From IMG/VR virus record IMGVR_UViG_3300028030_000040, positions 1 to 32,689 of that record: 32,689 bases of DNA. The stretch is one strand, 5' to 3'. Position numbers and translations under genes: made by a program. The notes beneath the pieces are model-generated. The model made no database searches and had not been told where the DNA came from. It saw only the letters and a list, made by a program, of their open reading frames with translations. Numbering within the stretch: the stretch's first letter is position 1; each line of letters begins with the position of its first letter. Source of the stretch: a virus. Below are positions 5,073 through 32,201 of the stretch, piece after piece.

Positions 5073-5232
5073 AGCTCCTGTCTCCTGTTTGCTCCGATTT
5101 TTTAATAGCCTCCGCCATGATCTGTGCCTTTTCATTTGCCGAAAGAGAAAACGGGGCAGACTGGCGGAGAAGCTGGGAAAGCATGTACTTTATTTCGCAC
5201 AGCTCTTTTTTTAATTCAGTAAGTTCACTCAT
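5038..5232 (-). CDS. Small helical early protein
   Basis: A 64-residue, Glu/Lys-rich helical protein (MSELTELKKELCEIKYMLSQLL looks like a short coiled coil), followed by SANEKAQIMAEAIKKSEQTGDRSYVRKA, which resembles a second helical pair. The start ATG overlaps the TGA of the Cro-like regulator gene (ATGA), fixing the start at 5232. It is the second gene of the leftward early operon. No known family. Confidence 0.6.
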   Translation of the reverse strand: MSELTELKKELCEIKYMLSQLLRQSAPFSLSANEKAQIMAEAIKKSEQTGDRSYVRKATAEINA

Positions 5233-5792
5233 GCCGCAGCAGCACCAGGGCATACATGATGCCCGTGAGCCTCGCACTTAATTTGCTGCCGATCATAAAT
5301 CCGCTTTAATTCCTGGCATGAATGCACACTTGCCATGACAAGCTCAAATTCCAGAATCTCAATACCCCGCTTGACATCAATTACCTGTTCCATCTCTCTT
5401 TCAAAAACTTCCAGATAATCATGCCGTTGCTGGAAATCCTTGTCAGAAAAACGCTCGGTAAGAACGTCAAGAGCGGCAGCCCCTTCCACCATTTCCTTTC
5501 GCAATCTGGAAGCAATGACAGCAGGATCTGTCTTGATATTGTTAAGTTCAGGAAATTGCCGCAGGATGATCTGAGCCCGCACGGGGCAAGCTCCACAAAA
5601 CTCTGTAAGAATGCTCACGTCATGGCAAGCCTTGGCGATCCTGATAAGGACATCAGGAGTAGGACCGTTTTTTAACTCGTTGTTTTCTATCTTGGAAACA
5701 GCAGCCTTACAGATTCCGATACGTTTTCCAAGTGTAGAGCCGGTGTATCCTGCTCTCTTCCGTGATTCTTTTATTTTTTTTCCTAAATCCAT
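5229..5792 (-). CDS. XRE-family HTH regulator, Cro/CII position
   Basis: A 187-residue regulator with an N-terminal XRE helix-turn-helix (LGKKIKESRKRAGYTGSTLGKRIG, AVSKIENNE, about residues 3-45) and a long helical C-terminal region without an S24 protease fold. The ATG at 5792 is preceded by AAGGAG at eight bases, which decides the start against the longer open frame. It is the first gene of the leftward early operon and is transcribed divergently from the repressor gene, the position of Cro or an early activator. Four Cys in the C-terminal part (two in the FCGACP segment, residues around 65-70) are noticeable. Exact role inferred from position. Confidence 0.75.
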   Translation of the reverse strand: MDLGKKIKESRKRAGYTGSTLGKRIGICKAAVSKIENNELKNGPTPDVLIRIAKACHDVSILTEFCGACPVRAQIILRQFPELNNIKTDPAVIASRLRKEMVEGAAALDVLTERFSDKDFQQRHDYLEVFEREMEQVIDVKRGIEILEFELVMASVHSCQELKRIYDRQQIKCEAHGHHVCPGAAAA

Positions 5793-5826
5793 TGTGTGTG
5801 CTCCTTTTGTTTCTATGTTACGGAGA

Positions 5827-5856
5827 AGCCTACACCATGCCACATAGAGTTGTCAA
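5827..5856 (-). promoter_or_regulatory. Candidate leftward early promoter
   Basis: On the minus strand a consensus -35 TTGACA (5856-5851) is followed after 18 bases by TAGGCT (5832-5827), a weak -10. Transcription would start about 35 bases upstream of the Cro-like gene. The -35 shares its bases with the candidate rightward promoter, so the two directions would compete. Confidence 0.4.
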
Positions 5857-5879
5857 TGTTTAATTCCACATTTTATATA
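5850..5879 (+). promoter_or_regulatory. Candidate rightward promoter
   Basis: TTGTCA (5850-5855), an 18-base spacer and TATATA (5874-5879) form a good sigma-70-type promoter facing the repressor gene, giving a leader of about 100 bases. It could act as a repressor-establishment promoter, since a second, leaderless promoter lies closer to the gene (inference). The direct repeat ACATTTTATA (5868-5877) falls on its -10. Confidence 0.4.
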
Positions 5880-5967
5880 GTTTCTGTGTTGCATTGGCTG
5901 TATGGGCTGATATCCATAAACAATCACGTTTTTGCTCTCTGCTTTGTGGAATAGGTTACATTTTATA
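5863..5967. promoter_or_regulatory. Operator-like repeats in the lysogeny switch
   Basis: Two exact repeat pairs lie in the divergent region: the inverted pair ATTCCACA (5863-5870) and TGTGGAAT (5945-5952), and the direct pair ACATTTTATA (5868-5877 and 5958-5967). One copy of the direct repeat overlaps the -10 of the distal rightward promoter. The other overlaps the -35/spacer of the proximal promoter. They are the best candidates for repressor or Cro binding sites. Confidence 0.45.
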
Positions 5968-5984
5968 GATTAATGCTTTATCAT
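5956..5984 (+). promoter_or_regulatory. Candidate promoter for leaderless repressor mRNA
   Basis: TTACAT (5956-5961), a 17-base spacer and TATCAT (5979-5984) place the transcription start about seven bases downstream, which is the A of the ATG at 5991. There is no Shine-Dalgarno before that ATG. This matches the leaderless cI message made from PRM in lambda. Confidence 0.45.
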
Positions 5985-5990
5985 ATTGGT

Positions 5991-6491
5991 ATGACACAAT
6001 TAAGAGTTGAAATAGGACAGCGGATAGTGTCTGTGAGAAAACGCATTAAAATGACACAGACTGAGCTTGGCGACATTGTGGGGCTGAAAGGAAACGTCTT
6101 GAGCAAATACGAACTCGGAGATGTCCACCAAAAAGCAGAAGCCCTTGTAAAAATAGCAGAGGTGGGGAAGGTCTCCCTGGACTGGCTGCTGACCGGGAAA
6201 GAATTTATAAAAGAAAAGCCGGACAATATCGCAGCAACAATCCATCCGGGGACAAAAGAGGCGGCAGAAAGAATCACCGCTAACAGCACACGGGCAACCG
6301 TATCAATCCCCCACCTGAAATGGGTAGTGGAATGGATGGATAACTATTTTACAAACGACAGTGAGCAAGCCTTGCTGTTTTACGAGCAGCTACGAGACGA
6401 CATGCCAAGCTTTAAAGAGTACATTGCAAGAGTTAAAAAAAAGAGCAGTGGTGTTGATAATGCAGAGGATAGCAAGATAGTATCGGCATAA
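5991..6491 (+). CDS. XRE-family phage repressor (CI position)
   Basis: A 166-residue repressor. The N-terminal XRE helix-turn-helix (IGQRIVSVRKRIKMTQTELGDIVG, VLSKYELG, residues about 8-45) is followed by the VSLDWLLTG segment typical of phage repressors, then a linker and a short helical C-terminal domain. No S24/LexA peptidase domain is present, so RecA-stimulated self-cleavage is not expected. Induction would need an antirepressor, which the phage does encode at 29298-30014. I prefer the ATG at 5991 over that at 5973 because the helix-turn-helix begins there and a promoter is positioned for a leaderless transcript. It heads the rightward lysogeny operon. Confidence 0.8.
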   Translation: MTQLRVEIGQRIVSVRKRIKMTQTELGDIVGLKGNVLSKYELGDVHQKAEALVKIAEVGKVSLDWLLTGKEFIKEKPDNIAATIHPGTKEAAERITANSTRATVSIPHLKWVVEWMDNYFTNDSEQALLFYEQLRDDMPSFKEYIARVKKKSSGVDNAEDSKIVSA

Positions 6492-6523: not shown

Positions 6524-7039
6524 ATGGGATATGTAGAAAACAATTTAATGAGCGGCGAGAAAGTCTTATACCGGGGAAAGGTCCACTGGTTTGTTTATGT
6601 CCCTGCTGCCATATTCTGGTTTTTATCTATTTCTATAATGTTTGATTCGGAAGCTGCCCCGGTAGTTGTAATCATTGCCCCGATTGCTATTTTTTTTACG
6701 GTAAGGGCTCTCATAGTCTCAAAATCAACAGAGGTAGCAGTAACAACACGCAGAATCATTGCCAAGACCGGATTTTTAAGAACATCAACAATCGAGCTAA
6801 ACCATCAAAAAGTTGAAAGCTTTGCAGTAAATCAAGGTCTCGCTGGTAACGTGTTCGGATTTGGCACAATCACAATAAACGGAACAGGCGGCATCCATAC
6901 GCCCATAAAAAACATCGCAGACCCGCTACAATTCAGGCGGAAAGCAATGGAGGCAATAGACGGAAAACAAAACCCGGTAAAAAGGAACCCGGCAGCAAAA
7001 CAAGAGGACGATCAGCCAATAAGATACGTCATAAAATGA
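6524..7039 (+). CDS. Bacterial PH-domain membrane protein
   Basis: A 171-residue protein of the bPH (YdbS/YdbT-like) type. The N-terminus (NNLMSGEKVLYRGKVHW) leads into two membrane helices (about residues 22-40 and 44-62), and then the PH domain with TEVAVTTRRIIAKTGFL, IELNHQKVESFAVNQGL and FGFGTITINGTGG. It lies in the lysogeny operon between repressor and integrase; its stop overlaps the integrase start (ATGA), so it is expressed in the lysogen. A membrane protein made from a prophage's repressor operon could alter the host envelope or block superinfection, which is inference from position. The family assignment is firm. Confidence 0.85.
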   Translation: MGYVENNLMSGEKVLYRGKVHWFVYVPAAIFWFLSISIMFDSEAAPVVVIIAPIAIFFTVRALIVSKSTEVAVTTRRIIAKTGFLRTSTIELNHQKVESFAVNQGLAGNVFGFGTITINGTGGIHTPIKNIADPLQFRRKAMEAIDGKQNPVKRNPAAKQEDDQPIRYVIK

Positions 7040-8055
7040 GCGTGAGACCCCATCCAACAAAAGGGAAAGGATGGTGGCAAATAGATATAGGACACGGAAA
7101 AAACCGCCAGCGTCCGGCGTTCCGTGGCAGTTTTGAGGATGCGGCAGCATTCGAGGCAGCCATCAGGCAAAAACGCCCGGAAGAGGTCAGGAGTTCAGCC
7201 CCGAAAATAAAAGAATTGTTTGTCCCGTTCCTGCACTGGTACACGTCGGAAGCCGCAGAAAGAACGATAAAAGATATCCGGTTTTCAATAGACCTCTATT
7301 TCGCCCCCTGGTTTGGCAATCTGCAACCATCAAGCCTTAACCTGTCACTCCTCAACAACTTTCGAGATACACTGTCAAAAGACGGTCTCAGTCCGGCAAC
7401 AATCAACAAACACCTGAACTATTTTTCCACCCTGCTAAAATGGGCAGCAGAAAACGGACACTGCCAACCACTCCCATTCCGCCTGCCAAGATACCCAAAA
7501 AAAAAGACCACAGCAAAACCAAAAAGACCGCTCACAACAAGACAAATAGACGCAATCTACAAACAGATTCCAGAAGAGTACCGGCTGATATTTTTACTCA
7601 TGGCAGATCACGGGCTACGGATCGCCGAGGCGACAAGCCTAAAAGCAGAGGACATAAACGAGCACAACGAGACTTTTACTTTTTTGGGAAAAGGAGGGAA
7701 ATATAGGACTGTCCCGTATATGTCCAACAGGTTTGCAAAAGTGCTATCAAAAGCCATGGACAGCCACCCGGACGGATACTTGACGATAAACAAAAAAACA
7801 GGAGGAAAATACACAACCATGTGGAAGCCGTTAAAAAGAGCGGCAAAAGAGGCAGGAATAAAAAGAGAGGTTAACCATCACTTGTTACGCCACAGCTTTG
7901 CGACAATCGCAGCCCAAAGCGGAATGAATCCCCATGCCCTGCAGCGGATACTGGGTCACGCAAGCATAGAGACAACAAATAAGATATACACCAACGTGAG
8001 CCTTGATTTTGTGGGAAATGAGGGCAGAAAACTCAGGGACAAAAAAGGTAATTGA
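7036..8055 (+). CDS. int: Phage integrase, tyrosine recombinase
   Basis: A 339-residue integrase of the XerC/D-like family. An N-terminal region is followed by a SAM-like core-binding domain (about residues 57-140) and the catalytic domain with all active residues: Arg 195 (HGLRIAE), Lys 222 (GKGGKYR), His 282-x-x-Arg 285 (HHLLRHSF), His 308 (LGHASIE) and nucleophile Tyr 318 (NKIYTN). Its start overlaps the PH-domain gene. Within 65 bases after its stop lies a tRNA-Gln 3' half that should be attP. The first candidate arm-type repeat overlaps its last codons. This is the enzyme expected to integrate the phage into host tRNA-Gln. Confidence 0.95.
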   Translation: MSVRPHPTKGKGWWQIDIGHGKNRQRPAFRGSFEDAAAFEAAIRQKRPEEVRSSAPKIKELFVPFLHWYTSEAAERTIKDIRFSIDLYFAPWFGNLQPSSLNLSLLNNFRDTLSKDGLSPATINKHLNYFSTLLKWAAENGHCQPLPFRLPRYPKKKTTAKPKRPLTTRQIDAIYKQIPEEYRLIFLLMADHGLRIAEATSLKAEDINEHNETFTFLGKGGKYRTVPYMSNRFAKVLSKAMDSHPDGYLTINKKTGGKYTTMWKPLKRAAKEAGIKREVNHHLLRHSFATIAAQSGMNPHALQRILGHASIETTNKIYTNVSLDFVGNEGRKLRDKKGN

Positions 8056-26938: not shown

Positions 26939-28930
26939 TCAAAATCCGGGGACTGTGGTACAAACACAGCCACGATGGATTGGTGCGTGGAGTTTTTTAC
27001 CGTTAATTTTCATACCGGATCCGTTGCTTGCCGTGATGGAATCGCCAGAAGCAAGGAAAGGCGAATAAATACCAACCTTCTTTCCCGCAAGCTGATGGCA
27101 AAACGGGCAGGTCTTAGACCCCTGAGTAACCCAAATAAGCGAAACAGCCCCGGCAGCTGCCCAGGTAAACCGGGAGACAGACTCCCCACCCTGCACAACT
27201 TCCTGGGATGCTATCTTGCCAGCCCTGGTGTCGTCCCACTCTGCGAGTCTGGTGTCCAGATCGTCGGCAAGGGCATCCGGTTCGCTGTCGTTAATGATAG
27301 CGGTAAGCTGTCCAACACTGGACCCGCCATGGCGATTACTCAAACCATCGGTGTAATCATCAATAAAGGTCTGCAAATCCTTCACGCTTTCCTCGTCTGT
27401 CTCGGCAAGGGCAGCGGCAGAAACCTTTTCCATATATTCAGCAATCAATGTTTTCATCCGGGGCGACACAGCAAAACGGCTGTAATATTCATCCAGCCAC
27501 TCTTTCAAGGTCTCCGCAGACTTTGTATCAAGATGTTCGGCAACAGCCTTTCTCACGTCCGCCACTTCCCCGGCAACCATGGCACCGGCAGCAAGCAAAA
27601 ATCGTTTTTTATAGCTGTCCCGCAATTTATTTCGTTCTTTTATGGAAGATCCGGACTTTGTATCAGGGGCAGCACTGTTTTTCCCGGCTGCCGGTGGTGG
27701 ATCAGGAGTAAAAACAGGCTGATCGTGCGGCACCATATTCAAGGGACGCAGATAAGTATCGCCACCCTCATAGGGATTCATGTTTTCTTTTGCCCGGCAC
27801 TCGTTGGGGCTGTAGATCCCGGCATTTATCCCGGACCGATACACAACATGCCTGGTCTGGATGTCCGCCCGTTCCAAGCCATCAAGCAAAAATTCAACGT
27901 AATACCCGGCTTTCTGGTCAGCTTCGGACAGCAGATCACGGGTAATGCACTGCTCCCAGCGTCGAGCCCAGGGCAGTACAGTATATTTTGCAAATTCAAG
28001 GGACTGCTGAGTGATGTTGGAAAAAGAAGACTTTTCAAGATCGCCGATCATGTGAGGCGGTACCCGAAAAATAGAGGCAATCTCCGGTTTCTGAAACTTC
28101 CTGGTCTCAAGAAACTGGGCATCCTCATTGCTCATGGAAATAGCTTTGTACTCCATGCCCTCTTCCAAAACAGCGGTGCCACCCTGCTTATCTCCACCAT
28201 GGGCAGCCTCCCACCGTTCCTTTATCCCGGCAGCAGCCTCCTTGGAAAGAGTCTGTGGATGAACAAGCACCCCGCCCGGACGTGCCCCGGTACGAAATAC
28301 ATTTCCACCATGCCGTTCCGTGGCAAGGGAAAGCCCGATGGACTCCCGAGCATACGAGATTGGAGAAATCCCGGTAAACCCGTCAAGAGAAAGCCCGATA
28401 ACCTTAAAAATATTACCAGGCGGAATAACCTCAGTCTTGTTCCCGATCCGGGCAGTATATTCAATGCCCCAATCATCATGCTGCTTAACAACAACATTTT
28501 CCAGCGGCAGCAATTCATGTACCCGCCGATTCTTCCCGCTGCCCACCCAGTTAATAAAACAATGATAATTCCCCCGCAGATTCAACCGAGCCATGCCCAG
28601 TTCCCGAAACTCAAAAGAGGTCTGGTAGCCGTTGGGCTTATCGTGCAAGATGGAATAAAGCGGATGATCCACAGCCCGTTCCTTACCATCAGCAGTTTTC
28701 CGATAAAGAATCAAAGGCAGCTGTCCAATCGATTCGCCCAAAATCCGCACACAGGCAAAAACAGCAACGCACCGCATGGCAGACGCAGGGCTGACACTGA
28801 CACCGGAGGAAGTCCCAGAGCCAGCCCCCAGGAGGTCGGCAAGATCGGCAGAACTAAGAATTTTCTGTCCGCCGGACTTAGTAAAAAATGTTTTTATTCT
28901 CTGCAGCATGCCCAAAACACTGACATACAT
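26939..28930 (-). CDS. Portal protein fused to MuF-like minor head domain
   Basis: A 663-residue fusion. The first about 400 residues are an HK97-type portal (SAMRCVAVFACVRILGESIGQLPL; NLRGNYHCFINW; PPHMIGDLEKSSFSNITQQSLEF). After a linker comes a helical part and then a C-terminal MuF/gp7-like domain with 'TWVTQGSKTCPFC'-type features: CPFCHQLAG near residue 600 and HAPIHRGCVCTTVPG at the end (the Cys/His set typical of SPP1 gp7/Mu gpF domains). Portal and minor head protein are usually separate genes. Two starts are possible: ATG 28930, directly after an in-frame stop, and ATG 28909; neither has a clear ribosome site. The gene is separated from the cassette upstream by a tandem repeat. Confidence 0.85.
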   Translation of the reverse strand: MYVSVLGMLQRIKTFFTKSGGQKILSSADLADLLGAGSGTSSGVSVSPASAMRCVAVFACVRILGESIGQLPLILYRKTADGKERAVDHPLYSILHDKPNGYQTSFEFRELGMARLNLRGNYHCFINWVGSGKNRRVHELLPLENVVVKQHDDWGIEYTARIGNKTEVIPPGNIFKVIGLSLDGFTGISPISYARESIGLSLATERHGGNVFRTGARPGGVLVHPQTLSKEAAAGIKERWEAAHGGDKQGGTAVLEEGMEYKAISMSNEDAQFLETRKFQKPEIASIFRVPPHMIGDLEKSSFSNITQQSLEFAKYTVLPWARRWEQCITRDLLSEADQKAGYYVEFLLDGLERADIQTRHVVYRSGINAGIYSPNECRAKENMNPYEGGDTYLRPLNMVPHDQPVFTPDPPPAAGKNSAAPDTKSGSSIKERNKLRDSYKKRFLLAAGAMVAGEVADVRKAVAEHLDTKSAETLKEWLDEYYSRFAVSPRMKTLIAEYMEKVSAAALAETDEESVKDLQTFIDDYTDGLSNRHGGSSVGQLTAIINDSEPDALADDLDTRLAEWDDTRAGKIASQEVVQGGESVSRFTWAAAGAVSLIWVTQGSKTCPFCHQLAGKKVGIYSPFLASGDSITASNGSGMKINGKKLHAPIHRGCVCTTVPGF

Positions 28931-28943
28931 TTAAAATGTTTGT

Positions 28944-28988
28944 GGGAAAATTGAGAAAATTGAGAAAATTGAGAAAATTGAGAAAATT
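28944..28988. repeat. Five tandem 9-base repeats
   Basis: GAGAAAATT in four exact tandem copies (28953-28988), preceded by one with a single change (GGGAAAATT, 28944-28952), just upstream of the portal gene. On the transcript the units read AATTTTCTC. They lie in the 160-base gap between the portal gene and the gene before it. They may be slippage-prone or a binding array, and no protein-coding role is convincing. Confidence 0.85.
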
Positions 28989-29089: not shown

Positions 29090-29308
29090 TCAATCATATT
29101 CAGGCACGCCTGCCAGTTCCTCCAATTCGATTATCAGCAAGGTTATATGTTTTGCAAGCAAGCCCACAGCGTCAACAAGAGTACCAAGTGTGTATCCATT
29201 GGGATCTTCAGCCACATGCTCAGTATCTATCGCTCTCTTCACACCTTCCAGTGCACCTGTAGCCTCCTTTATTTCTTTTGTTTTTTGTTTTAGTTCTTCA
29301 TGCGTCAT
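29090..29308 (-). CDS. Small helical protein of the antirepressor cassette
   Basis: A 72-residue protein, helical throughout: an N-terminal Lys/Glu-rich helix (THEELKQKTKEIKEATGALEGVKRAI) and a hydrophobic second half (LGTLVDAVGLLAKHITLLIIELEEL). The ATG at 29308 has GGAGG nine bases upstream and overlaps the end of the antirepressor gene. No known family. Its position makes it part of the c4/antirepressor cassette, perhaps an auxiliary of the antirepressor. Confidence 0.6.
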   Translation of the reverse strand: MTHEELKQKTKEIKEATGALEGVKRAIDTEHVAEDPNGYTLGTLVDAVGLLAKHITLLIIELEELAGVPEYD

Positions 29309-30014
29309 CGTGAGCAACCTCCACAGCCAGATACCCTGCCAGACGTGTCAGCCCCTTGGGAGTGATTAAAACTTGCTCGGTAACTTTTTCCCGACCGTCA
29401 GAAGTAGAAACCATTGTAACTTTATGGTGCAAAACTCCCTGCTGTATTCTGTTCTGGTAGCCAATCCAGCCTTTTCCCCCTTGTCTCCTGTATATCCATT
29501 TGTTTTCAGATAACCAGAGGAACAGGTCTTTCGGGCGAATCTGCAAGGTTTTGGCTGTGTCAGTGATACAGGTCAGCCCGTCAGCCGTGGCAATCCGGTC
29601 AAATCCAGCCACTTTCGGGGCTGCTTCTTTTACTTCTTCCTCAAGGGCAAGGACTTTTTCTGTATAGGTAAGCAATATTCCCCGCATGGCTGCCGGGTCA
29701 TTAAGGGCTTTCATGGGGTCTTGCTCTTTTTTCTCCAACTCCACCCATCTTGAAATAACCTGACTTCTCCTTTTGGCGTCATAACCAGTGACCAGAGTCA
29801 TGGTCGCCTCGAAGTCGAGTAGGTACATTGACTGTTTTCTGTTTGACTTGTCGGTGTAGGAGGTGAGTCCAAAACTGGACTCACCTATTGCTGACTGGTC
29901 AACAAGTGATTTTATATCCCTCATCACTTTATTATGTTTTTTCTTGGTAAGTTCTGCAATGTCCAGACTGGACATCTTTTCTGTGGCGGACCTGGTGGTA
30001 ATCAGACTGCTCAT
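29298..30014 (-). CDS. ant: Antirepressor, Rha N-terminal plus KilAC/ANT C-terminal domain
   Basis: A 238-residue antirepressor. The N-terminal domain (ITTRSATEKMSSLDIAELTKKKHNKVMRDI; LLDFEATMTLVTGYDAKRRSQVISRWVELE) is the phage Rha domain. The C-terminal half (EEEVKEAAPKVAGFDRIA; AKTLQIRPKDLFLWLSENKWIYR; ITPKGLTRLA) is the ANT/KilAC domain of P1 Ant and relatives. It should inactivate a phage repressor, here probably the peptidase-free repressor at 5991. The AGGAG site seven bases before the ATG lies inside the 10-base target of the c4-like RNA upstream. The start overlaps a short ORF by ATGA, so both antisense control and translational coupling are predicted. It is placed, unusually, inside the head gene cluster. 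Confidence 0.85.
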   Translation of the reverse strand: MSSLITTRSATEKMSSLDIAELTKKKHNKVMRDIKSLVDQSAIGESSFGLTSYTDKSNRKQSMYLLDFEATMTLVTGYDAKRRSQVISRWVELEKKEQDPMKALNDPAAMRGILLTYTEKVLALEEEVKEAAPKVAGFDRIATADGLTCITDTAKTLQIRPKDLFLWLSENKWIYRRQGGKGWIGYQNRIQQGVLHHKVTMVSTSDGREKVTEQVLITPKGLTRLAGYLAVEVAHDDA

Positions 30015-30163
30015 AACAATGCTCCTTTGTGAAATAAATTTTCACCATTTCTCGACTCCAAACGAAAAATGGCTGTTAAGCAGGTTGGAATACCGCACAA
30101 AGGAACGGTGAACCCGAAGGCTCCCTGCTCAACAGCCAAAGAGACTTGTTGAGGCGTGGACAT
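30011..30163 (-). CDS. Short Icd/Ash-position ORF overlapping ant
   Basis: A 50-residue open frame (start MSTPQQVSLAVEQGAFGFTV) whose stop overlaps the antirepressor start as ATGA. In phages P1 and P7 the icd frame occupies this place and its translation is coupled to ant. It runs through the whole c4-like RNA, so part of its sequence is dictated by RNA structure and it may be little more than a coupling leader. A GGCGG seven bases before the ATG could serve as ribosome site and is itself the 3' arm of a terminator-like hairpin. Coding status moderate. Confidence 0.5.
   Translation of the reverse strand: MSTPQQVSLAVEQGAFGFTVPLCGIPTCLTAIFRLESRNGENLFHKGALL
30071..30137 (-). ncRNA. c4: C4-type antisense RNA controlling ant
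   Basis: The transcript folds by inspection into a three-way junction. A 14-bp closing stem (30137-30124 with 30084-30071, one G.U) encloses hairpin one, GAGCC-UUCG-GGUUC (30123-30110), and hairpin two, ACCG/CGGU (30109-30092), whose 10-base loop UUCCUUUGUG is complementary to CACAAAGGAG at 30031-30022. That target contains the antirepressor Shine-Dalgarno (one G.U pair). The closing stem is followed by AUUUUU, so it could also end transcription. Antisense control from the same strand and upstream of ant is exactly the mechanism of c4 RNA in P1/P7. Confidence 0.8.
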
Positions 30164-30200
30164 AAAAAAACCGCCAATCAAAAAATAGGCGGTGTCCGCC
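30164..30200 (-). terminator. Mutually exclusive hairpins before the c4 RNA
   Basis: GGCGG (30200-30196), CCGCC (30192-30188) and GGCGG (30175-30171) lie in a row. Pairing 1:2 gives a hairpin followed by UAUUUUUU; pairing 2:3 gives one followed by U7. Only one can form at a time, which is attenuator-like. The third arm is also the possible ribosome site of the short ORF. Confidence 0.5.
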
Positions 30201-30249
30201 TTTGTGTCGGGATTCCAAACCCGGTCACCGGTATTCCGGCAACACAAGA

Positions 30250-30278
30250 ATCGTACCCAACCTTTTCGGCAAAGTCAA
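30250..30278 (-). promoter_or_regulatory. Promoter of the c4/antirepressor cassette
   Basis: On the minus strand TTGACT (30278-30273), a 17-base spacer and TACGAT (30255-30250) form a near-consensus sigma-70 promoter with the predicted start near 30243. It reads into the hairpin leader, c4-like RNA and ant, so the cassette can be expressed in a lysogen without the late operon. Confidence 0.65.
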
Positions 30279-30309: not shown

Positions 30310-30492
30310 TTAAATCGTTCTGTTTCTGGTCAAATAATCATCAAGCTTTTTTTCAGGGACACGCAGCCCCTTTTTCGGTCCAGTGCGGACAGCCGACAGA
30401 TCGCCATATTCAATAAGACGGTAAACGCTGGAAATGGAGCAGGACAGCCGTTTGCTTACGATGCCAACGGTTAAGAGTTTCCCTTTTTTCAT
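30310..30492 (-). CDS. Small HTH protein, excisionase-like
   Basis: A 60-residue MerR/excisionase-type DNA-binding protein: helix-turn-helix (LLTVGIVSKRLSCSISSVYRLIEYGDL) and wing (SAVRTGPKKGLRVPEKKLDDYL). It starts in an ATGA overlap with the TerL stop, so it is translated with late genes although it looks regulatory. It ends about 30 bases upstream of the promoter of the antirepressor cassette, which it may regulate, or it may be the excisionase for the integrase. Position only; partner unknown. Confidence 0.7.
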   Translation of the reverse strand: MKKGKLLTVGIVSKRLSCSISSVYRLIEYGDLSAVRTGPKKGLRVPEKKLDDYLTRNRTI

Positions 30493-32201
30493 AGAATCAG
30501 CATTTCCTCTTTTTCATACTTTGATTTTTTAGTCGCTTCCCCAAACATCGCCCGTTTTATCGCCATAATCAAAGCAATGGCACCATCAATCTTTAAATGT
30601 CGCTGATGCCGTTGCTTTTTCGGTTTTACGTTGCCGTTGGTGTCCTCTTCGCAAACAACATTAGACAAACACCATTTCAAAATCGGATTCCCGTCATAAA
30701 AGAATTTCCCGTCCCGGATAAGAGCACTCAGTTCCTTGGTTGGCTCGGACAACTCCCGCACCGTCTGGTTAATCTCAACAATGGGAATACCCTCGTCCTC
30801 CATATGTGCCGCCATCTGTGAAATATTCCAAGGATCACAGGGAACCTCCACAACCTCAAAACGCCTGGCATCATCAATTATCTGTTCCTCGATGTAATCA
30901 ACATCAAGCCGATACCCTGCAGTGACCTGCAAGTCTCCAGAGTTCGCCCAGCCAGCATAGTGTGCCTTATCAGCTCCCTTCACTGCCTCCTGCGGCAAAT
31001 AAAAATCACAAAAGGCATAATAATAATCCGCCCCGTCAATTTCCCGCTTAAACACCTTAATTTTTGCGGTAAGATCCTCTTTGGAGGCAAGGTCAAGCCC
31101 GATCCACACATTTTCCCCCTCAAACTCATCCAGGGAAAGAGATTCATCGGCACATTTACCAAGGGCAGCAATATCATAATAAGCGGTAGCAACATTCATC
31201 CACTCATTAAGGTGCTTGCACCTGATAACATTTTGCTTCTGTGGATCTTGTAAGGCTGTCAGCAGCTGCCCGTCCAGGAACTCAGCAAAGACAGAAACCC
31301 CATAGTTTGGGTTTGCCTTTTTCCAAACGCCGATATCTGTCCAATCGTCGCCATCGTCAACGGTGTAAATCAAACCAAAAAGCTGGTCGTTATCAAAAAC
31401 ACCATCCAAAACTTTTATTACCTGCTCCCGCTTGCTATGACAAGGACCGGCGATATTACTCCCTGCAGTCGTTATCACACACAGCAAAGGTTGAGCCCGA
31501 GAACCCATACCAGTTGCCATGGTGTCATACTGATCCGGCGTTTTTGCCTCATGGAACTCATCAATAATAGCAGCATGCGGGGCAGCACCGTCACCGGGAT
31601 CACCAACAAGCAACTCAAACCGGGAAAAGTCAGTAAGGGTGGTCAAATCCTTGGCATGGACATCAACAGAATAAAACTCGCAGAAATCAGGATTGTTTTT
31701 TGCCATTAACCTTGCAGGGCGGAAAACCTCCCAAGCCTGTTTCTCGGTAGTCGCCCCGGAGTAAACCTCCGCCCCACCCTCACCATCGGCACAAAACATA
31801 TACAGCCCGATAATGGCACCAAGCACAGACTTACCGTTTTTTCTTGGAATCTCCGCATAACACTCCCGAAAACGCCGCAACCCACTCTTTTTATTAACCC
31901 AGCCAAAAAGCACACTGAGAAAAAACACCTGCCACGGCTCCAGCACAATATCACGCCCAGCCCAAACCCCTTTGACATGCTGCAGGTTCTCAGCAAATCC
32001 GCAGATCCGGTCTGCCGGACGATACTCACGCCCCCGAGCATCAACCAAAACAGGATTAAAAACAAAATCAAAATCATCACCCTGCCGCTCAAGGTCGGAA
32101 AGTTGTCGTTTAGCCGACTGCCTGGTAATTTTCGCAACACAGATATCACCAGAAACAACCTGTCTGGCATACTCCGCAGAAATCCCCTCATAGTCTCTCA
32201 A
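30489..32201 (-). CDS. terL: Terminase large subunit, HK97-like
   Basis: A 570-residue packaging ATPase-nuclease of the Terminase_1 family. Walker A is PRKNGKS at residues 119-125, Walker B AAIIDEFHE with Asp 214 and Glu 215, coupling motif around 240 (CVITTAGSN). The nuclease domain starts at about 370 with GLDLASKEDLTA (first metal Asp) and ends with the KIDGAIALIMA motif (last Asp) near 545. The start is TTG at 32201, three bases after the TerS stop codon begins, with GGGAT upstream; the family's usual N-terminus (YARQVVSGDI..A) begins at once, so this start is right. It drives DNA into the prohead and cuts it. Confidence 0.95.
   Translation of the reverse strand: MRDYEGISAEYARQVVSGDICVAKITRQSAKRQLSDLERQGDDFDFVFNPVLVDARGREYRPADRICGFAENLQHVKGVWAGRDIVLEPWQVFFLSVLFGWVNKKSGLRRFRECYAEIPRKNGKSVLGAIIGLYMFCADGEGGAEVYSGATTEKQAWEVFRPARLMAKNNPDFCEFYSVDVHAKDLTTLTDFSRFELLVGDPGDGAAPHAAIIDEFHEAKTPDQYDTMATGMGSRAQPLLCVITTAGSNIAGPCHSKREQVIKVLDGVFDNDQLFGLIYTVDDGDDWTDIGVWKKANPNYGVSVFAEFLDGQLLTALQDPQKQNVIRCKHLNEWMNVATAYYDIAALGKCADESLSLDEFEGENVWIGLDLASKEDLTAKIKVFKREIDGADYYYAFCDFYLPQEAVKGADKAHYAGWANSGDLQVTAGYRLDVDYIEEQIIDDARRFEVVEVPCDPWNISQMAAHMEDEGIPIVEINQTVRELSEPTKELSALIRDGKFFYDGNPILKWCLSNVVCEEDTNGNVKPKKQRHQRHLKIDGAIALIMAIKRAMFGEATKKSKYEKEEMLIL

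Follow-up and report, generated by a model that had tools for sequence, protein, structure and literature searches.

A C4/immI-type RNA module preceding a Rha-KilAC antirepressor gene between the packaging genes of a phage

The record of bacteriophage P1 annotates c4 together with the sites a1, b1, a2, and b2, and according to this annotation and the sequence, a' is the segment in the junction of the C4 RNA while b' is the loop segment that meets the ribosome site. The icd gene of P1 starts after C4 and ends in an ATGA overlap on ant1. In phage P22 the sar RNA is a separate antisense transcript rather than one processed from the leader of ant. It blocks translation of ant, the product of which is an antirepressor (PMC12197685). 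The CI RNA of satellite P4, with seqA and seqC, is a processed antisense RNA that has targets before and after itself in one and the same transcript, and the paper describing IsrK of Gifsy-1 likens the Gifsy-1 system to P4 CI (PMC4825925). In Gifsy-1 a highly expressed RNA of about 80 nt, STnc1160, is processed from the isrK transcript (PMC4825925). Here we analysed a viral stretch of 32,689 nucleotides (IMG/VR record IMGVR_UViG_3300028030_000040; in the following the window), in which a locus with the same layout as that of P1 is found on the minus strand.

The C4 RNA and its targets

When the whole 32,689-base record was searched with the Rfam covariance models, the C4 antisense RNA (RF01695) was the sole match at gathering level. 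It is located at 30143-30065 on the minus strand, scores 47.4 bits against a gathering threshold of 45 (E 2.8e-06), covers the model over its full length (positions 1-87) and contains zero non-standard pairs in the cmscan alignment. The score is thus near the cut-off, and the closing stem is shorter. The region is predicted to fold with -40 kcal/mol (z -5.3 relative to shuffles) into a three-way junction, i.e., two hairpins within a long closing stem. A preliminary description had proposed a C4-type locus with a three-way-junction RNA and named the Infernal search as its check; both proposals are borne out by the match, the fold and a loop pairing with the Shine-Dalgarno sequence that is located as in other C4 loci. 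Judged by sequence, the mature form would extend from about 30137 to 30070, with GG at 30137 as the expected 5' end and GCCA at the 3' end. A run of five U (30069-30065) abuts the closing stem and has no counterpart in P1, Gifsy-1, or the further loci inspected; with five U right after its stem, C4 could itself terminate transcription.

The loop segment b' (UUCCUUUGUG, 30096-30105) pairs over 10 bases, nine Watson-Crick pairs and one G-U, with b2 (CACAAAGGAG, 30022-30031), which is the Shine-Dalgarno sequence of ant. C4 would thereby act directly on the ribosome site of ant, an arrangement also found in Gifsy-1 and in several other loci that directly precede antirepressor-like genes. The complementarity had been pointed out before and stands up to comparison with chance, as dinucleotide shuffles of the 50-nt ant leader paired equally well or better with b' in only 5 of 5000 cases, and shuffles of the upstream leader in 9 of 5000. 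The b2 10-mer is present as a single copy in the whole record. A second pairing, which like the leader copies a1 and b1 and the isrK-type leader itself was absent from the preliminary description, joins the junction segment a' (AUUCCAA, 30085-30091) to the upstream target a2 (UUGGAGU, 30055-30061) in the ant leader. On its own a2 is unremarkable (864 of 5000 shuffles), and the pairing contains a G-U pair.

Covariation was assessed in 35 C4 loci from P1, Gifsy-1, related phage records, and 398 Pseudomonadota species genomes. Despite loop sequences that differ between phages, in each of the 35 loci no other C4 matched the four targets, taken together, as well as the C4 of the locus itself. The strongest covarying signal was b2 (mean pairing score 22.1 against 11.8 when permuted, sd 0.5), but b1 (19.6 against 12.5), a2 (17.4 against 11.6), and a1 (17.9 against 13.4) also scored above their permuted values. 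The distances are conserved as well: in nearly all loci b2 is found 30-40 nt and a2 2-9 nt 3' of C4, with b1 typically 55-65 nt 5' of it, and the offsets in the window (+35, +5, and -63, respectively) fit the family. Because C4 scores above the cut-off, the pairings are in place, and all 35 loci fit their own four targets best, the locus is, at the level of sequence, a bona fide and complete C4/immI module in an unusual place.

The leader, the short reading frame, and the cassette

Upstream of C4 a consensus scan identified a putative promoter (30250-30278) with -35 TTGACT (30278-30273) and -10 TACGAT (30255-30250) at a spacing of 17 bases. It matches the consensus at 9 of 12 positions, a quality of match that would arise about twice by chance in the region, and the transcript start predicted from it, near 30243, agrees with the start of the isrK family; the promoter claimed earlier thus lies where the family start puts it. 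From here a leader RNA of the isrK/c4-a1b1 type (30243-30164) is predicted. At relaxed thresholds the isrK model (RF01394) matches 30243-30164 with 37.2 bits (E 1.1e-06 in 341 bases; cut-off 50) and the c4-a1b1 model (RF03163) matches 30256-30204 with 23.5 bits (E 0.00065 in 341 bases; cut-off 46.7), so that both remain below their cut-offs. By score the leader is not classed as a member of RF03163, although a1 and b1 occupy the right places. The P1 leader is likewise below the isrK cut-off, with 35.1 bits. A search for the exact leader pattern in viral contigs found none.

The leader has a first hairpin at 30242-30225 and a second at 30208-30223, the position of which follows the family geometry and which bears a1 (UUGGAAU, 30218-30212), the complement of a'. 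It is followed by b1 (CACAAAGG, 30199-30206), the complement of the loop b'. Further downstream, the hairpin AGGCGG-ACA-CCGCCT (30201-30187), which b1 abuts and which is followed by ATTTTTTG, competes for the shared CCGCC with the leader terminator CCGCC...GGCGG-U7 (30192-30164), and the terminators may therefore be regarded as mutually exclusive, as was proposed from the sequence earlier. The latter hairpin corresponds by position to the family terminator, and 26 of 36 C4 loci have a terminator here. In the window an automatic terminator finder selected the competing hairpin and not the family terminator. A clamp helix over the U/T run of the leader terminator can be formed between GGACA (30197-30193) and TGTCC (30162-30158). 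The clamp of P1 is also GGACA/TGTCC, that of other C4 loci GGCGCA/TGTGCC or GCGCAT/ATGCG, and it covaries among loci (own mean 5.06 against 4.37 +/- 0.16 when permuted).

A reading frame of 50 aa (30011-30163) starts with an ATG at 30163, runs through C4 and overlaps the start of ant with its stop (ATGA, 30014-30011). No good ribosome site precedes the ATG, and no homologue was found in Pfam, PHROGs, or the phage collection. The overlap with ant noted in the preliminary description is thus present, but the likeness to icd drawn from it does not hold and the reading frame was rejected as an icd, as icd of P1 begins after C4 while the 50-aa frame spans C4, like orf45 of Gifsy-1, and is without a Pfam, PHROG, or phage match. 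Between C4 and ant the window consequently has no icd with b2 at its ribosome site, which is the arrangement of immI in P1. Only a minority of the C4 loci carry a reading frame ending in such an ATGA overlap, and P1 has no frame of this kind through C4; because so few loci have it, it does not define them.

The ant gene (29298-30014) is found downstream of C4 in the same orientation, as in immI of P1. It encodes a putative antirepressor of 238 aa with an N-terminal Phage_pRha domain (PF09669, 4.6e-15) and a C-terminal ANT/KilAC domain (PF03374, 3.8e-31), and is 28% identical to Ant1 of P1 over 147 aa, the ANT domain being common to both. Searches of the viral and genome collections with back-translated patterns found no close relatives of ant. 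The end of ant is overlapped by a 75-aa reading frame (29090-29317, minus strand) without a convincing family match, which is likely on the same transcript and probably part of the cassette.

The cassette extends from about 30.3 to 28.95 kb and, as stated in the preliminary description, lies between TerL (30489-32201) and portal (26939-28930), with a small HTH gene separating it from TerL. The CI-like and Xre-like regulators of the phage are found at 5229-6491. In about 97 packaging clusters that were retrieved via TerL, the gap between TerL and portal was below 260 bases in nearly all cases and an ant gene was found in none. The two nearest relatives (TerL 72-73% and portal 71-72% identical) have gaps of 231-256 bases and no cassette. 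For these reasons the cassette is best read, from this comparison with the two relatives and the other clusters, as an insertion in this phage. In one of them, L003, the portal gene directly follows a homologous HTH gene. Genes for closely similar Rha-KilAC antirepressors were inspected at 12 phage loci; none had a C4 beside it, and most were located in the early operon. A repressor operator occurring both at the C4 promoter and in the immunity region was sought, but only weak matches were obtained. The 9-mer GAAAATTGA is repeated 4.8 times in tandem ahead of the portal gene (28946-28988), and by eye the two close relatives, L002 and L003, seem to carry short repeats of other sequence in the corresponding position. 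The record also carries two tyrosine-integrase genes on opposite strands (1851-2540, minus; 7036-8055, plus).

Proposed mechanism and alternatives

Very probably, a C4/immI-type RNA switch keeps the Rha-KilAC antirepressor silent, with the leader as a second partner of C4. Transcription from the promoter of the locus would in most cases stop at the leader terminator and give a leader RNA. Transcripts that read through would include C4, which would fold into its three-way junction and be excised, presumably by RNase P in analogy to P1. The loop b' would then mask the Shine-Dalgarno sequence of ant at b2 while a' anchors just upstream at a2, so that ant would remain untranslated and the lysogen quiet, and a related phage entering the cell would meet the same block. 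Ant itself putatively acts on the phage repressor, as suggested by its antirepressor domains. As the leader repeats both targets in the form of a1 and b1 it should be able to bind C4, in cis by an alternative fold and, as free leader RNA, in trans. It is therefore conceivable that an excess of leader titrates C4 and releases ant, in the way that IsrK acts on anrP in Gifsy-1. For enforced pairing between leader and C4 the predicted cost is 0.6 kcal/mol in the window; over the 35 loci its median is 1.3 kcal/mol (24 of 35 at 3 kcal/mol or less), all by folding without a matched control. Because this cost is low, the leader-C4 read-through transcript is predicted to be nearly bistable in most loci.

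An alternative fold that is within 0.6 kcal/mol of the best one is also what would be expected if the locus worked as a switch in cis only, as proposed for Gifsy-1. Here, pairing of the leader with the C4 region would inactivate the read-through RNA and free leader would open it, after which the 50-aa reading frame and then ant would be translated by way of the ATGA coupling, C4 being a mere part of the mRNA. The open reading frame across C4 and its ATGA overlap, in the window and in Gifsy-1, are consistent with this. So are the Gifsy-1 data, in which both native gels and double mutants speak for the alternative structure and start and stop mutants of orf45 have lowered anrP translation (PMC4825925). 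Moreover, the IsrK mutations G28A and G31A raise anrP when in cis, which the authors explain by a conformational switch in cis coupled to orf45 translation (PMC4825925); this effect is not predicted by a pure C4 sponge and favours a cis switch. On the other hand, such a switch has no need for the conserved pairing with a2 and b2, the latter being the strongest covarying signal, and it would depend on an ATG without a preceding ribosome site in a type of reading frame, spanning C4, that only the minority of loci have and P1 lacks. We consider it unlikely that cis switching alone accounts for the locus.

The two hairpins sharing CCGCC, the first of them abutted by b1, together with the frequent presence of a terminator at this place (26 of 36 loci), could instead point to attenuation as in P4, where C4 acting on a1 and b1 of the nascent leader would favour the terminator over the competing hairpin and leave ant untranscribed; a similar role has been suggested for STnc1160 (PMC4825925). 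In this phage the competing hairpin has a U-run of its own, however, and because of this it is not a clean antiterminator, and the presence of a2 and b2 at the ribosome site is left unexplained, making attenuation quite unlikely as the main mode of control. That C4 is a decaying or chance relic without control over ant, for which its score close to the cut-off and the lack of the cassette in the two nearest relatives might speak, is highly improbable with a specific loop sequence that finds its complement in b1 as well as in b2, each placed as in the rest of the family, and with promoter, terminator, and ant all intact.

IsrK, C4, and the relation to described systems

The locus has its counterpart in Gifsy-1. 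There isrK (79.3 bits), c4-a1b1 (48.1 bits), and C4 (69.0 bits) overlap or follow each other immediately 5' of anrP (minus strand, 34131-34316 of record L082), and in terms of sequence orf45/STnc1160 is a C4 RNA and IsrK its a1b1 leader. Among the 398 Pseudomonadota species genomes sampled, 60 have C4 above the cut-off, and at least 30 of the 35 isrK matches above cut-off precede, by 11-68 bases and in the same orientation, one of the listed C4 matches; the other five are in genomes that also carry C4. Rfam lists isrK without a C4 clan. Among the papers searched, none was found to join IsrK with C4, nor were Icd, bacteriophage P1, or 'C4 antisense' found in PMC4825925, while an annotation table for Xylella lists the two families side by side (PMC12189769). 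When positions are counted on the Gifsy-1 sequence, two of the published IsrK mutations (G28A, G31A) prove to lie in a1 and two others (C159U, C162U) in a' of C4. The a' mutants increase basal anrP about 100-fold or more, and IsrK supplied in trans activates more than 100-fold unless mutated in a1, whereas constitutive STnc1160 failed to block the growth effect of IsrK (PMC4825925).

It is tempting to speculate that C4 modules in general are three-part switches made up of a leader decoy (isrK/a1b1), C4, and a ribosome-site target, with a bistable read-through RNA and a terminated leader that triggers induction as a sponge for C4, so that IsrK and C4, so far investigated separately, would be the halves of one device. 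We hold this generalisation tentatively, as quite possible but somewhat short of probable. It would tie activation by a leader RNA in Gifsy-1 to repression by an antisense RNA in P1, and would give a1 and b1, which the P1 record labels only as putative target sites, a candidate role as sponge sites. As the published IsrK mutants fall in a1 and a', the sponge idea is testable with existing strains. The switch itself is ordinary, and the identity of IsrK/orf45 with a C4 module is the part that may be new to specialists. Several C4 of Pseudomonadota genomes precede short reading frames unlike antirepressors, and seven genomes have at least 10 C4 matches each, which suggests, from sequence context, a use of C4 beyond prophage immunity. 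What the window adds is a C4 switch that forms a self-contained cassette inside a packaging operon and would act directly on a Rha-KilAC antirepressor without icd.

The likeness to sar/ant of P22 and to the CI RNA of P4, which works by transcription termination of replication genes, is one of description and not of sequence. With isrK-orf45-anrP of Gifsy-1 (RF01394; STnc1160) the window shares the order and spacing of leader, terminator, and C4 within a short reading frame that ends in an ATGA overlap, as well as direct pairing with the ribosome site of the antirepressor gene. It differs from Gifsy-1 in the antirepressor, in the start of the reading frame, which is at the edge of C4 in Gifsy-1 but before C4 in the window, and in location, which is between Q and the lysis genes in Gifsy-1 and within the packaging genes here. 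With immI of P1 and P7 (c4-icd-ant; RF01695, RF03163) it shares the promoter, the a1/b1 leader with terminator, the C4 three-way junction, the downstream a2 and b2, and the KilAC antirepressor. In contrast to immI, the window is without icd and has b2 at the ribosome site of ant, a Rha N-terminus in Ant, a reading frame that spans C4, a U-run after the C4 stem, and a location between TerL and portal. The second, remote layer of immunity that the preliminary description proposed from this location is already what immI is in P1.
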